Below, piece after piece: positions 46,151 to 50,078 of a DNA stretch of 64,000 nucleotides (position 1 is the stretch's first letter; every line of letters starts with the position of its first letter). The stretch is from Candidatus Binatus sp. (GTDB lineage Bacteria > Desulfobacterota > Binatia > Binatales > Binataceae). The position numbers and the translations under genes are program-made. Location of the stretch: positions 65,365 to 129,364 of the forward strand of contig NZ_JAUSKL010000122.1 in NCBI RefSeq assembly GCF_030646925.1. Reading direction: 5' to 3'. The notes beneath the pieces were generated by a model. The model did not search any database and was not told the origin of the DNA. It saw nothing but the letters and a program-made list of their open reading frames with translations.

Positions 46151-46969
46151 TCAGAGCGAGGTGCCCAGGATGTCCTGCACGAAGTGTGGCATCGTGTTGC
46201 GCGAGACCATCACGCAGATGAAATCGCCGCGCGGATAGTAGCTCATGCACACGCGATAACCCTTGTAGCTATAGTAGCTGTGGCCCCCGACGGTTTGTGT
46301 CGCACCTTGGGGCAGTTGCATCCCGTGCGCCTTCATGAACGCGCACAGAATCGAACTGCCCTCGCCACGATAAAAGGTGAACGCAGCGAGGCTGCCATCG
46401 GAGAGCCGATCGAGGCGACCGCCTACCAGCCGATAGCCGCTCGGTTGCAGGTTCCAGAGCAGGCCGGGCATCTTGTGACCCAGATAAGCGTCCGAGATAT
46501 CTGCCGGTGACGCGGACGGGACGTTAGGCTCGAAGTGAGCGTCGAAATGTTGGTAGCGCGCGATTGCTACGTCGAAGGCTGGAACCGCGCCTGCCGGTGG
46601 GACGCCTCCGCCATGAAAGATCACGAATGCGATCACGGCCGCCGCGGCGGCCGCGGTCGGAATCCATAGCCGCGCGCTCCGCAGGGCGGAGAGCGCAGCG
46701 CGCCTGGTCCGCTGCGGCCGTTCGCGATTCCCGGCGGCTGAATCGACCGCGTCCAGCGCAGCGAGAATCGAGCCACGCACCTGGGCAGGCGTCTGATAGC
46801 GCCGCGCGCGCTCATGAACCAGCGCCTTGACCGCGCGCTCTTCGGCATAAAGAAGCCGGCAATTGGCGCATCCCTTGAGATGCTGCTCGACGGCGCCGGC
46901 TTCGACCGCGCCGAGCTCGCCATCAACGTGGGCGTCCAGGTACCGCTCGATGTAAGTGGTGCAATCCAT
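46151..46969 (-). CDS. Zinc-finger anti-sigma factor with Cys-containing extracytoplasmic domain
   Basis: A 272-residue membrane protein that probably holds the upstream ECF sigma factor inactive. The N-terminal ZAS motif is His30-x3-Cys34-x2-Cys37 in HLKGCANC. One membrane helix lies at about residues 102-118. The outer domain of roughly 150 residues has three cysteines (209, 241, 252) in SILCAF, YRVCMS and FICVMV, and several Tyr/His-rich strands. These could sense metal or redox state, by inference. It lies 110 bp after the sigma gene on the same strand and next to the bufferin operon it may control. Confidence 0.82.
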   Translation of the reverse strand: MDCTTYIERYLDAHVDGELGAVEAGAVEQHLKGCANCRLLYAEERAVKALVHERARRYQTPAQVRGSILAALDAVDSAAGNRERPQRTRRAALSALRSARLWIPTAAAAAAVIAFVIFHGGGVPPAGAVPAFDVAIARYQHFDAHFEPNVPSASPADISDAYLGHKMPGLLWNLQPSGYRLVGGRLDRLSDGSLAAFTFYRGEGSSILCAFMKAHGMQLPQGATQTVGGHSYYSYKGYRVCMSYYPRGDFICVMVSRNTMPHFVQDILGTSL

Positions 46970-47079
46970 TGTTGAGTTTCCGCGCTATGAGCCGCTGACG
47001 CTAGAAACCGCGGCCCGGCGCCGAACCCCCTCGCTACGATGCGCCATTAACGTCCAGTAGGCTTCGTGCTTCGCGTGAG

Positions 47080-47658
47080 TCAAGAGCGAATTATTCCTCT
47101 AACTTTGGCGTAACCCGCCAGCGCCTCGCGCAGCATCGATCGCCCGCGCGATACCCGCGATTTTACCGTACCGATCGGAATGTTGAGAACCCCCGAAATT
47201 TCCTGGTAGCTCAATTCCTCCACATCCACCAACAGCAGCGCCTCGCGAAATTCGTCTGGCAATTTAGCAAGCGCCGCCTCGACTTCCTGCTCCATCCCGT
47301 AGCCCGCCAGCAGGGCTTCAGGGTTCGATTCGGCGTGATTCCCGCGGATGCTTTCGAGTTCTATCCTATGCTCGAAATCCTCCGCGCTCGAGGCCGGCTG
47401 CTCGCGCGCCGTCCGGCGGTACCCGTTGCGAAAATTGTTGAACAGTATCGTCAGCAGCCACGCCCGGCAGTTGGTGCCGGCTTCGAACTGATGAAAAAAA
47501 CGATAGGCCCGCAGCGCAGTTTCCTGCAGCAGATCGTGGGCGTCGTCGGGGTTGCGCGCAAGGCGCATCGCCGTGCTGTAGAGCGCGTCGAGATGAGGCA
47601 AAGCCTCCTCTTCGAACCGCTTGCGGCGGTCGTCGCCGATGCCACCCTTGCCCGCCAT
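47080..47658 (-). CDS. ECF-type RNA polymerase sigma factor
   Basis: A 192-residue group-4 sigma factor. Region 2 covers about residues 18-85 (LDALYSTAMRLARNPDDAHDLLQETALRAYRFF, shown here as core DAHDLLQETALRAYRFF), with the RAWLLTILFNNFRN stretch typical of region 2.4. Region 4 (about 125-185) has LPDEFREALLLVDVEELSYQ-like sequence and the HTH SYQEISGVLNIPIGTVKSRV. No extra C-terminal domain is present. The zinc-finger anti-sigma gene follows. Being divergent from the bufferin genes, it is the obvious candidate for switching them on, as ECF control of bufferin operons is known in Caulobacter (SigF). Confidence 0.92.
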   Translation of the reverse strand: MAGKGGIGDDRRKRFEEEALPHLDALYSTAMRLARNPDDAHDLLQETALRAYRFFHQFEAGTNCRAWLLTILFNNFRNGYRRTAREQPASSAEDFEHRIELESIRGNHAESNPEALLAGYGMEQEVEAALAKLPDEFREALLLVDVEELSYQEISGVLNIPIGTVKSRVSRGRSMLREALAGYAKVRGIIRS

Positions 47659-47781
47659 ATGCGAAGTCTAGATACATAGCATCCCGTATCATTAAAATCT
47701 TGCGGCGGCCCGATATGTTCCCGCCGAGCGAAACTAGCTTGCGATTGCGGCGATAATTTTGAACCGGATCGCGCGACTGGG

Positions 47782-47834
47782 ATGTAACTCGGCGGCCGCA
47801 GGCGCATCCTAGAAGAGGAAAGTCGCTATGTAAC
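47782..47834 (+). promoter_or_regulatory. Two ATGTAAC direct repeats upstream of the bufferin precursor gene
   Basis: ATGTAAC occurs at 47782-47788 and 47828-47834 in the 310-bp gap between the sigma and precursor genes. The string resembles -35 elements of some ECF promoters (GTAAC type). A -10 could not be assigned confidently. The rest of the gap (47659-47968) also holds GGGAAC on the minus strand near 47718, a possible sigma-gene promoter, and no gene. Confidence 0.35.
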
Positions 47835-47968
47835 GCGCCAGGAATTCGCTAAGACGATTACTGGCGGCGGGCGCGGGAATTTTGCGGCTGCGTTCGCGGT
47901 TACGACGGATGAATCATGACAAGACGCCGGAGACAGGCTCCGGCGACAATCGAAGGGAGATTCGAACG

Positions 47969-48247
47969 ATGAACAGATCGAGACTTACTGGTGCGGTTCT
48001 GGCTACGGCGGTTGCGCTGTCGTTCATGGGCAGCGCGGCGCTCGCCGCGGACGAATCGAAAGCGGCTGCTTCGGAGGTGAAATGCGTCGCCGGCAATGCC
48101 TGCAAAGGGCAAAGCGCGTGCAAGAGCGCCGCGAGCGACTGCAAGGGCCAGAACGCATGCAAGGGCAAGGGCTATGTCATGATGACCAGTGACAAGGAAT
48201 GCATGGCGGCGGGCGGCAAGTCGGAAAGCGCTCCGAAGAAGGAGTAG
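47969..48247 (+). CDS. Bufferin-type RiPP metallophore precursor (BufA-like)
   Basis: A 92-residue small secreted protein. Residues 1-26 are a Sec signal peptide (cleavage after ALA, before ADESK). The mature part has six cysteines (39, 45, 51, 58, 64, 78) in spaced NACKG / SACKS / SDCKG / NACKG units, then KGKGYVMM and KECMAAGG, and a Lys-rich tail. That matches DUF2282-type or BufA2-like bufferin precursors, whose cysteines are modified by the MNIO enzyme to bind copper. Subgroup is uncertain. I chose the ATG at 47969, preceded by AAGGGAGA; a longer frame to 47882 lacks signal features. Genes for the MNIO enzyme and partner follow. Confidence 0.82.
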   Translation: MNRSRLTGAVLATAVALSFMGSAALAADESKAAASEVKCVAGNACKGQSACKSAASDCKGQNACKGKGYVMMTSDKECMAAGGKSESAPKKE

Positions 48248-48270
48248 GCATTGAGGTGATCGAGCACTGG

Positions 48271-48295
48271 ACGCGCGAGCAAGAGGCTCGCGCGT
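48271..48295 (+). terminator. Strong intercistronic hairpin between precursor and MNIO gene
   Basis: ACGCGCGAGC (48271-48280), a 5-nt loop AAGAG, and GCTCGCGCGT (48286-48295) form a perfect 10-bp stem. No T-run follows. It could protect the precursor mRNA or reduce read-through, so that more precursor than enzyme is made. Function inferred. Confidence 0.55.
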
Positions 48296-48328
48296 TCATC
48301 GCACTGGCGCCGAACGAATGCGACTGCG

Positions 48329-49288
48329 ATGAAGCGGACTGACTTCCCATTTCTTGGTTTTGGCGCCGGCCTTCGCCGCCCGCATTACAGCTTCGTGCTG
48401 GAGCATCCGCGGTCGCAGCGGCAACCCAGTCAAGAGCTTCAGCAAGAACAAAAGCCTGAATCAAAGGTCGATTGGTTCGAAGTCATCTCGGAAAATTTCA
48501 TGGTCGACGGCGGCCGCGCGATCGAAGTGCTCGAGGGCGTCCGCGAGCGCTATCCGATCGTATTGCACGGCGTCTCGATGTCGCTCGGATCGAGCGATCC
48601 GCTGAATCGCGACTACCTGCGAAAGCTGCGCGATCTCGCGCGGCGCTTCGAGCCGGCGTGGATTTCGGATCATCTGTGCTGGACTGGGGTTGGCGGGCGC
48701 AATCTTCACGACCTGCTCCCGCTACCATACACGACCGAAGCGCTCGCGCACGTCGCCGAGCGAATCCGGCAGGTGCAGGATTTCCTCGGACGCGCGATTC
48801 TGATCGAGAACGTCTCGAGCTACATGGCGTTTGCGGATTCGTCGATGCCCGAGTGGGAATTTCTCGCGGAGATCGCCGAGCAGGCCGATTGCGGCATCCT
48901 GCTGGACATCAACAACATCTTCGTGAGCGCGTTCAATCATCGCTTCGACGCGAACGAATACCTGGACGCGATCCCGGTCGAGCGGGTGGTGCAATATCAT
49001 CTGGCGGGCCACAGCGATCACGGCACGCATCTGCTCGACACGCACGATCATCCGGTGTGCGAGGGCGTGTGGGCGCTGTACGAGCGCGCGGTGCGCCGCT
49101 TCGGCAAGGTATCGGCGCTGATCGAATGGGACGACAACATCCCGGAGTTTTCGGTGCTGGCCGAGACCGCCGATCGCGCGCGAGCGATTTACGAAAAGAT
49201 TGTGCGCGAGACCGCATCGCAGAGTCCCCATGACAACTTCGCTGAAAAATCTGGAAAGCCTGCTCTACCGGCTGATCACCGCGCCTAG
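48329..49288 (+). CDS. DUF692 / MNIO-family RiPP-modifying enzyme (BufB-like)
   Basis: Multinuclear non-heme iron oxidase that modifies precursor cysteines. A TIM-barrel protein of 319 residues. Conserved ligand regions: GLRRPHY (His19), FEVISENFM (Glu51/Glu55), VLHGVSMSLGS (His80), WISDHLCW, ILIENVSSYM, LLDINNIFVSAFNH, YHLAGHSDHGTHLLDTHDHPV and LIEWDDNIPEF. Between His19 and the SEN strand there is an unusual Gln/Glu-rich insertion (about residues 25-46). The C-terminal 30 residues extend past the barrel and overlap the next gene by 59 bp. Adjacent bufA- and bufC-like genes support the bufferin assignment. Confidence 0.92.
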   Translation: MKRTDFPFLGFGAGLRRPHYSFVLEHPRSQRQPSQELQQEQKPESKVDWFEVISENFMVDGGRAIEVLEGVRERYPIVLHGVSMSLGSSDPLNRDYLRKLRDLARRFEPAWISDHLCWTGVGGRNLHDLLPLPYTTEALAHVAERIRQVQDFLGRAILIENVSSYMAFADSSMPEWEFLAEIAEQADCGILLDINNIFVSAFNHRFDANEYLDAIPVERVVQYHLAGHSDHGTHLLDTHDHPVCEGVWALYERAVRRFGKVSALIEWDDNIPEFSVLAETADRARAIYEKIVRETASQSPHDNFAEKSGKPALPADHRA

Positions 49289-50078
49289 CGGTGTCGCCGA
49301 AGGGCTCGCGGCGGAACGTAATCTGCCGCGCGGCGGACTTGACGCAGTTGTCGTCGGCGATGAGCGCCTGTCGGCAGCCGAGCGAGTCGATATCTACGCC
49401 AACATGTATTTCTATCGGCTGCTCGACGCGCTCAAAGAGGATTATCCCGCGACGCTTGCGGTGCTCGGCGCCGACGGTTTTCACAATCTCGTGACTGGCT
49501 ACCTGCTCGAGCATCCCCCGACCGAGCCTTCGATTTTCTATTGCGGCCGCTTTCTGAGCGGCTTTCTGCGCGACCATCCGCTCAGCGCGGATGCTTCATA
49601 CCTCGCGGATTTGGCGGCGCTGGAGCGCGCGACGGTCGCGGTATTTCACGGTCCCGACGCGGACGCGCTCGACGCCGACACGATGCGCGCGACGCCGCCG
49701 GATGAATGGCCGGCGCTACAACTGCGATTGCATCCGGCGGCGCAGATACTGCACGTGAAGTGGCGCGTCGTGGAATTGTTGCGCGCGATCGAGGAGCATC
49801 GCGAGTGGAAACCCGCGCAATCGAGCGCCGCCAGAATCGTCGTGTCGCGCCGCGATCGGCGAGTACTCTATCGCGAGCTCGAGCCGCTCGAGTATAGCGC
49901 AATCGACTCAGCAATCACGGGCGCCACGTTCGCGGAAATCTGCGATCTGGTCGGCGGCGACGCCGACGCGGGCGGCCTCGATCCGGTCGCGACGCTGAAT
50001 CGATTGCTCGCGCGATGGCTGAGCGACGGCATCTTCACTAAACGAGCCTTCGCCCGGATCAAACGAAACGCGCTATAG
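49230..50078 (+). CDS. DUF2063-domain partner protein (BufC-like)
   Basis: A 282-residue protein that recruits the precursor to the MNIO enzyme in related systems. The N-terminal DUF2063 domain is recognisable: LYRLITAP at the start, then RVDIYANMYFYRLLDALKEDYPATLAVLG and the GRFLSGFLRDHPLSADASYLADLAALERA stretch. The C-terminal half is variable with a winged-helix-like look. Start at the ATG 49230, inside the bufB gene (59-bp overlap), so translation is likely coupled. No DoxX-type membrane protein (often BufD) follows; a GNAT-like gene comes next, 9 bp after. Confidence 0.85.
   Translation: MTTSLKNLESLLYRLITAPSGVAEGLAAERNLPRGGLDAVVVGDERLSAAERVDIYANMYFYRLLDALKEDYPATLAVLGADGFHNLVTGYLLEHPPTEPSIFYCGRFLSGFLRDHPLSADASYLADLAALERATVAVFHGPDADALDADTMRATPPDEWPALQLRLHPAAQILHVKWRVVELLRAIEEHREWKPAQSSAARIVVSRRDRRVLYRELEPLEYSAIDSAITGATFAEICDLVGGDADAGGLDPVATLNRLLARWLSDGIFTKRAFARIKRNAL

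Follow-up and report, generated by a model that had tools for sequence, protein, structure and literature searches.

A Buf2-type bufferin operon divergent from genes for an ECF sigma factor and a zinc-finger anti-sigma factor in Candidatus Binatus

What switches on a bufferin operon of the large Buf2 group? Bufferins have been named only recently, and the parts of the bufferin literature available to us give no account of how this group is switched on; all statements on published systems below likewise refer to the available parts of the papers cited. The question is raised by a locus in a 64,000-nucleotide stretch of Candidatus Binatus sp. (assembly GCF_030646925.1, contig NZ_JAUSKL010000122.1; hereafter the window), where five open reading frames are confirmed at 46151-50078: minus-strand genes for an anti-sigma factor and an extracytoplasmic function (ECF) sigma factor, divergent from plus-strand genes for a precursor peptide, a multinuclear non-heme iron-dependent oxidase (MNIO, DUF692) and a DUF2063 protein. 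We consider it probable that local ECF control acts on this locus, a bufferin operon of the Buf2 type. An earlier sequence-only reading had assigned these gene roles, placed the DNA in a Binatota-like lineage and remarked on the absence of a DoxX-type gene beside the operon; it was right on each count, and the family models for the gene roles are passed.

The operon, its neighbourhood and its promoters

The precursor scores 75.1 bits against the BufA2 model NF050166 (cut-off 60), has six cysteines, at residues 39, 45, 51, 58, 64 and 78, and judged by eye appears to carry a Sec-type signal peptide with a basic start and a hydrophobic stretch, ending ALA-AD. The enzyme, the single MNIO match in the genome, scores 377.2 bits against the BufB model NF050167 (cut-off 310) and also matches PF05114. 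MNIOs of the Cys-Lys type have an aspartate adjoining the catalytic-base aspartate, whereas those of the Lys-Cys type have a phenylalanine there (PMC12668002). The pair D268-D269 of BufB does not vary in an alignment of the window's protein with ten relatives (11 sequences) and is aligned with Asp-Phe in 3bww; it fits the Cys-Lys type, the position being matched to the published rule by motif and with FonB outside the alignment. BufC passes the model PF09836 for DUF2063, the domain of PME-type 1 partners (54.9 bits, cut-off 27.2), and falls below the cut-off of the HvfC model NF050145 (45.6 against 142 bits). Because the precursor passes BufA2, the enzyme passes BufB and D268-D269 fits the Cys-Lys mark, the locus is, by its sequence, a Buf2-type bufferin operon, and the search with the BufA2 hidden Markov model settles the affiliation of a precursor that the sequence-only reading could not match to a named subgroup: it is a BufA2 (Buf2, six cysteines, Cys-Lys type). 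As in other Buf2 bufferins (Buf_6/12Cys; NF050166 and NF050167), a six-cysteine Cys-Lys precursor with a putative signal peptide is combined with an MNIO and a DUF2063 protein in the order A-B-C; unlike them, the window locus adds the divergent ECF sigma factor and zinc-finger anti-sigma factor and has no DoxX gene, the two DoxX matches in the genome being barely above cut-off (26.2 and 25.3 against 23.6 bits) and both on other contigs. By analogy with the family, the precursor cysteines would probably be converted to 5-thiooxazoles by BufB and BufC, and copper, the stated ligand of the class (PMC12452194, PMC12668002), would be the ligand and the signal here.

This arrangement had been taken for the established bufferin layout, from which its regulatory part deviates. 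The available part of a survey of bufferin clusters reports sigma genes in Buf1 clusters and none in Buf2 clusters (PMC12452194), and the sigF operons of Caulobacter use the anti-sigma factor NrsF (DUF1109, six membrane segments) and a promoter GTAACC-N16-CGAA (PMC3511200). The Caulobacter operons resemble the window's as precursor-DUF692-DUF2063 operons with ECF control (likely in our case), but their precursors are of the DUF2282 type and their anti-sigma factor is NrsF, whereas here there are a six-cysteine precursor, a zinc-finger anti-sigma factor and GGGAAY-N18-GTT. NrsF (DUF1109) is not among the Pfam matches of the window anti-sigma factor up to an E-value of 10, and only zf-HC2 is above cut-off. 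In the literature searched we found no report of an ECF/anti-sigma pair with Buf2 and none on Binatota together with bufferins; within that literature, this Buf2 member has an unreported regulatory arrangement.

The pairing is not peculiar to the window. We searched 148 genomes of the class, 84 of them with BufB above cut-off, and tabulated 89 bufA2 genes from 77 genomes, leaving out L225, where the bufA match was false, and 12 BufB stretches in which bufA was not detected (two of them, L191 and L281, coincide). Genes with this ECF gene divergent and adjacent are called linked: there are 21 (in 21 genomes, all of the window's family), and 68 are unlinked. Of the 41 family genomes searched, 32 have a tabulated bufA2 and 21 of these show the divergent pairing, which spans ten genera; among the 45 genomes outside the family with a tabulated bufA2, none shows it. 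At linked loci bufB follows bufA2 in 18 of 21, DUF2063 is detected in 16 of 21 stretches (none in L159, L160, L165, L168 and L173), and six cysteines are encoded by 20 of the 21 bufA2 genes, the window's included. There is also a recurrent site, in which the anti-sigma and ECF genes and the divergent buf genes stand between purF (15/21 linked loci) and a gene for a GNAT acetyltransferase (16/21), some loci ending at contig ends. At least 574 named loci were confirmed; among the best 80 of them, 68 with a detected bufA2, an ECF gene is divergent and adjacent only in L003, L004 and L006. All three lie within the window's family, and L003 has a different ECF gene. The link between ECF and buf genes is wide in the family and not absolute. 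Different ECF sigma genes lie divergent from bufA2 at L194 (G288) and L231 (G381), and sigma genes may therefore have come beside Buf2 more than once.

Promoter-like elements accompany the pairing. Upstream of the sigma gene, GGGAAC-N18-[A/G]TT is found at 14 of the 21 linked loci, including the window; L153 and L154 have a spacer of N17, the site of L166 was recognised by eye, and L163, L170, L173 and L175 are without one. The promoters of the Streptomyces sigma factor SigR have a spacing of N18. Their elements are GGAAT and GTTG (PMC5005934), to which those of the sigma-gene promoter are close, in line with the similarity of the sigma factor to SigH and SigR. Upstream of bufA2, GGAAY-N18-GTT occurs at 6 of the 21 linked loci, where shuffles that keep dinucleotides exactly give a mean of 0.2 and never as many in 1000 trials, and the count peaks at a spacing of 18, other spacings from 10 to 26 giving at most 2. 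Across the whole table, with genomes scored as ECF-positive by a hit of E 1e-40 or lower (the resulting list, like the family membership and genus labels, was compiled by hand), the motif precedes bufA2 in 9 of 42 ECF-positive and 0 of 47 ECF-negative rows (Fisher p 7e-4), or 9/35 and 0/42 by genome; of the genera, 8 of the 20 that have the sigma factor show it, and none of the 25 that lack it. In G318 and G320, two of the nine motif-positive genomes, the ECF gene lies on another contig and bufA2 still has the motif. The named loci L007-L081 have 74 bufA genes, none of which it precedes. The conserved neighbourhood, together with the motif in a subset of the genomes, supports the likely control of bufA2 by this ECF factor.

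The control that we favour would work as follows. In resting cells the anti-sigma factor would keep the sigma factor at the membrane. A metal or thiol stress, most likely an excess of copper, would be sensed by an RseB-like ectodomain (through C209/C252), by the cytoplasmic zinc finger or by both, and the sigma factor so freed would transcribe its own operon and bufA2-bufB-bufC. BufB and BufC would then modify the precursor, and the peptide, exported by Sec, would chelate copper in the periplasm.

Table 1. Coordinates in the window of genes and candidate regulatory elements at the bufferin locus
Feature	Position	Strand	Remarks
bufA2, six-cysteine bufferin precursor	47969..48247	+	92 aa; NF050166; NACKG/SACKS/DCKG/ACKG Cys-Lys motifs
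bufB, MNIO (DUF692) bufferin maturase	48329..49288	+	NF050167, PF05114
bufC, DUF2063 partner protein	49230..50078	+	PF09836
ECF sigma factor, SigR/SigH-like	47080..47658	-	Sigma70 domains; TIGR02947 similarity
Anti-sigma factor, zinc finger and ectodomain	46151..46969	-	zf-HC2
Putative autoregulated sigma-gene promoter GGGAAC-N18-ATTTTA	47693..47722	-	Pattern found at 14 of 21 linked ECF genes
Putative bufA2 promoter GGGAAT-N18-GTTACG	47875..47904	+	About 93 bases 5' of start codon; SigR-like elements
Second ECF-like promoter match TGTAAC-N15-GCATCC	47783..47811	+	Type preceding bufA2 in other families of the class; uncertain here
Perfect 10-bp stem-loop, bufA2-bufB gap	48271..48295	+	Possible mRNA end or processing point

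In these gene calls the start of bufA2 is most likely the ATG at 47969, with AAGGGAG just 5' of it, rather than the mechanically called TTG at 47882, and that of bufC most likely the ATG at 49230, which gives a 59-base overlap with bufB. In the gap that separates the sigma-gene start from the ECF-type promoter lies a TGCTATGT-like (TGCTATGTT-like) element (47668-47681, minus strand), seen by eye in many relatives and perhaps an extended -10 of the housekeeping sigma-70 type. The stem-loop between bufA2 and bufB could set an excess of precursor; its z-score is -3.2 against mononucleotide shuffles and -1.4 against first-order random sequences. As a shared element it was rejected: 17 linked loci have a median z of -0.4 and not one value under -2, and for 58 other loci the median is -0.8, with 10 values under -2. 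Variant precursors were also seen. G121 and G270 have the ECF/anti-sigma pair at the recurrent site with a six-cysteine bufA2 adjoining the ECF gene and no MNIO; elsewhere (L189/L190) they encode, beside an MNIO and DUF2063, a short precursor with SSCKGH repeats at its end (five and four cysteines), and one enzyme perhaps serves two precursors. At L192-L196, L198, L199, L203 and L177, BufA2 has five cysteines, the fourth having been lost in a PGPG/PGAG/AGPG stretch, and eight of these nine loci are without the ECF pair next to bufA2.

The sigma factor, the anti-sigma factor and the signal

The ECF protein has Sigma70_r2, r4 and r4_2 above their cut-offs and scores 167.9 bits against the SigR/SigH model TIGR02947, below the cut-off of 251.55; among solved structures it matches SigH best (entries 6jcy, a chimera, E 3.6e-40, and 5zx2, E 3.1e-38). 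The anti-sigma factor matches zf-HC2 above cut-off (36.8 bits) and the RsrA model TIGR03988 below it (37.8 against 62.5 bits), and its zinc finger H30-C34-C37 is invariant in 38 aligned proteins, three of which have an insert inside the motif. A hydrophobic segment at about residues 102-118, identified by eye, putatively spans the membrane and is followed by an ectodomain (about 127-272) with C209, C241 and C252. The closest characterised relatives of the sigma factor are SigR of the Streptomyces SigR/RsrA system and SigH of Mycobacterium; shared features are the HxxxCxxC type of anti-sigma factor and the promoter elements described above. The window proteins differ from SigR/RsrA and SigH in scoring below the family cut-offs and, for the anti-sigma factor, in being seemingly membrane-bound with an ectodomain.

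A structure model of the anti-sigma factor, built from a three-row alignment, has a mean predicted local distance difference test score (pLDDT) of 68.5, with ectodomain blocks at 79-93 except the last, at 68. In this model the ectodomain resembles the C-terminal part of E. coli RseB and Pseudomonas MucB (VIA-align Z 8.5, root mean square deviation 2.8 over 94 residues of 2v42, 11% identity; Foldseek match to MucB at E 1.5e-4); the similarity is confined to residues 218-313, in the later part of RseB, and the first match of another kind has a Z of 6.3. We regard the match as moderate because models that have no relatives often reach best Z-scores of 7 to 8; at the sequence level, Pfam gave no match that ties the ectodomain to RseB or MucB. 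Those two are separate proteins, whereas here the domain would lie inside the anti-sigma factor itself. A different anti-sigma factor has RseB as its partner in the periplasm, which makes a fused sensor plausible. Within the ectodomain C209 and C252 co-vary: among 37 aligned proteins both are cysteine in 25, neither in 11 and C252 alone in one, these being counts of sequences, not events, which relatedness inflates, with the pair-less form maybe confined to one or two clades.

Copper attacks thiols, and copper and thiol signals may therefore overlap. A response to thiol or oxidative stress instead of copper, as in SigR/RsrA and in the RpoE2/HrsE system of Haemophilus, is a possibility that we hold to be unlikely. 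It is favoured by the SigR/SigH similarity of the sigma factor, the zinc finger of the anti-sigma factor and the SigR-like promoter, and by the Haemophilus parallel, in which RpoE2, an ECF factor held by a small zinc-motif anti-sigma factor, answers hypochlorite and targets, among others, an operon that contains a DoxX-like gene (PMC7907618). RsrA and the 67-residue HrsE are, however, cytoplasmic anti-sigma factors (PMC7907618 for the latter), whereas the one in the window is seemingly anchored in the membrane and extended by an ectodomain, and the BufA2 model is named for copper. The Haemophilus system also differs from the window's in its MNIO product, which in H. influenzae is oxazolin, of the EGKCG group (PMC12668002).

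The case for and against local ECF control

A separate doubt concerns the control itself. The pair could be a mere conserved neighbour of a real bufferin operon, regulating itself and other genes while bufA2 is served by housekeeping promoters or another ECF factor, an explanation that we find rather unlikely. Several observations speak for it and weigh against local ECF control. The ECF and buf modules are separable: G280, G281 and G290 have bufA2 and bufB at the same site without the pair (and without a detected DUF2063), G267 and G268 have the pair there without buf genes, and ECF orthologues in G285, G283, G293 and G294 have no buf gene in the surrounding stretch examined. The motif before bufA2 was first spotted by eye in part of the loci on which it was tested, and the 45 rows added later are without it (ECF-positive 0/8, ECF-negative 0/37). 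It is also absent at 12 of the 21 linked loci even when spacers of 17-19 are allowed, including G263, the closest relative of the window. Under a position matrix built from 18 promoters of sigma genes, linked and ECF-negative bufA2 promoters show no difference (Mann-Whitney p 0.18), and the window bufA2 site taken alone reaches p 0.06; random sequences for this test, as for the word-pair, second-motif and cross-relative stem-loop tests, were first-order Markov samples. The top matrix match among the 47 ECF-negative rows is that of G290, whose genus mates G291 and G292 carry the ECF factor.

Nor was a genome-wide regulon seen in a search with the single pattern GGGAAC-N18-GTT, from which the window's own two sites differ: it gives 13 exact sites in the genome against 6 for a backward control, 9 of the 13 overlap frames open for more than 150 codons, and no copper gene was recognised among the downstream frames inspected by eye. 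The ratio of sites to controls is not higher in 28 ECF-positive genomes of the family (median 1.47) than in 13 ECF-negative ones (1.36; p 0.24). Against a mere neighbour stand the peak at a spacing of 18, the distribution of the motif over genera with and without the sigma factor (8/20 vs 0/25) and a divergent pairing kept in ten genera. We call the control of bufA2 likely, and not more, because the motif was found by eye, the later rows gave no matches, the matrix test was null and G263 has no site.

The TGTAAC-N15-GCATCC match that also lies 5' of the window bufA2 is a further point in favour of control from elsewhere. Its general form, G[AT]AAC-N15-GC[GA]TC, selected on the very data used to test it, precedes 11 of the 68 unlinked bufA2 genes, with a mean of 0.07 and a maximum of 1 in 300 random sets and 0 to 2 genes at the other spacings from 10 to 23. 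The carriers (L201, L208, L210, L243, L248, L252, L256, L270, L273, L277 and L278) belong nearly all to other families of the class. In a prior search, exact word pairs were barely above shuffles (6 loci for the top pair against 4-5). Only one of the 21 linked loci, the window itself, carries the motif, along with one of the 74 bufA genes of L007-L081, and a second promoter in the window is therefore uncertain. Buf2 operons without an adjacent sigma gene may be under ECF control from elsewhere. Several Bradyrhizobium bufA2 genes, mutually close relatives, are preceded by GTAAC-N16/17-CGTA.

That the peptide serves another metal, such as gold, cadmium or chromium, is improbable, given that copper is the stated ligand of the class (PMC12452194, PMC12668002), against which can be set the response of the Caulobacter sigF operons to chromium and cadmium (PMC3511200) and the proposal in the survey of other metals for some bufferins (PMC12452194).

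We also advance, tentatively, a bolder form of the proposal of local ECF control. The anti-sigma factor might be a copper or thiol sensor in one protein, joining a cytoplasmic SigR-type zinc finger to an RseB-like ectodomain with a C209/C252 switch and giving Buf2 a dedicated ECF regulon, while other families of the class might run bufA2 from a second ECF type. If local control holds, Buf2 would have a dedicated ECF/anti-sigma pair in a phylum that is little cultured; such a pair, with its candidate sensor domain and a promoter open to testing, would provide a regulatory handle on Buf2. It would also extend ECF control of bufferins beyond the NrsF case, and would hint at the signal that the peptide answers.

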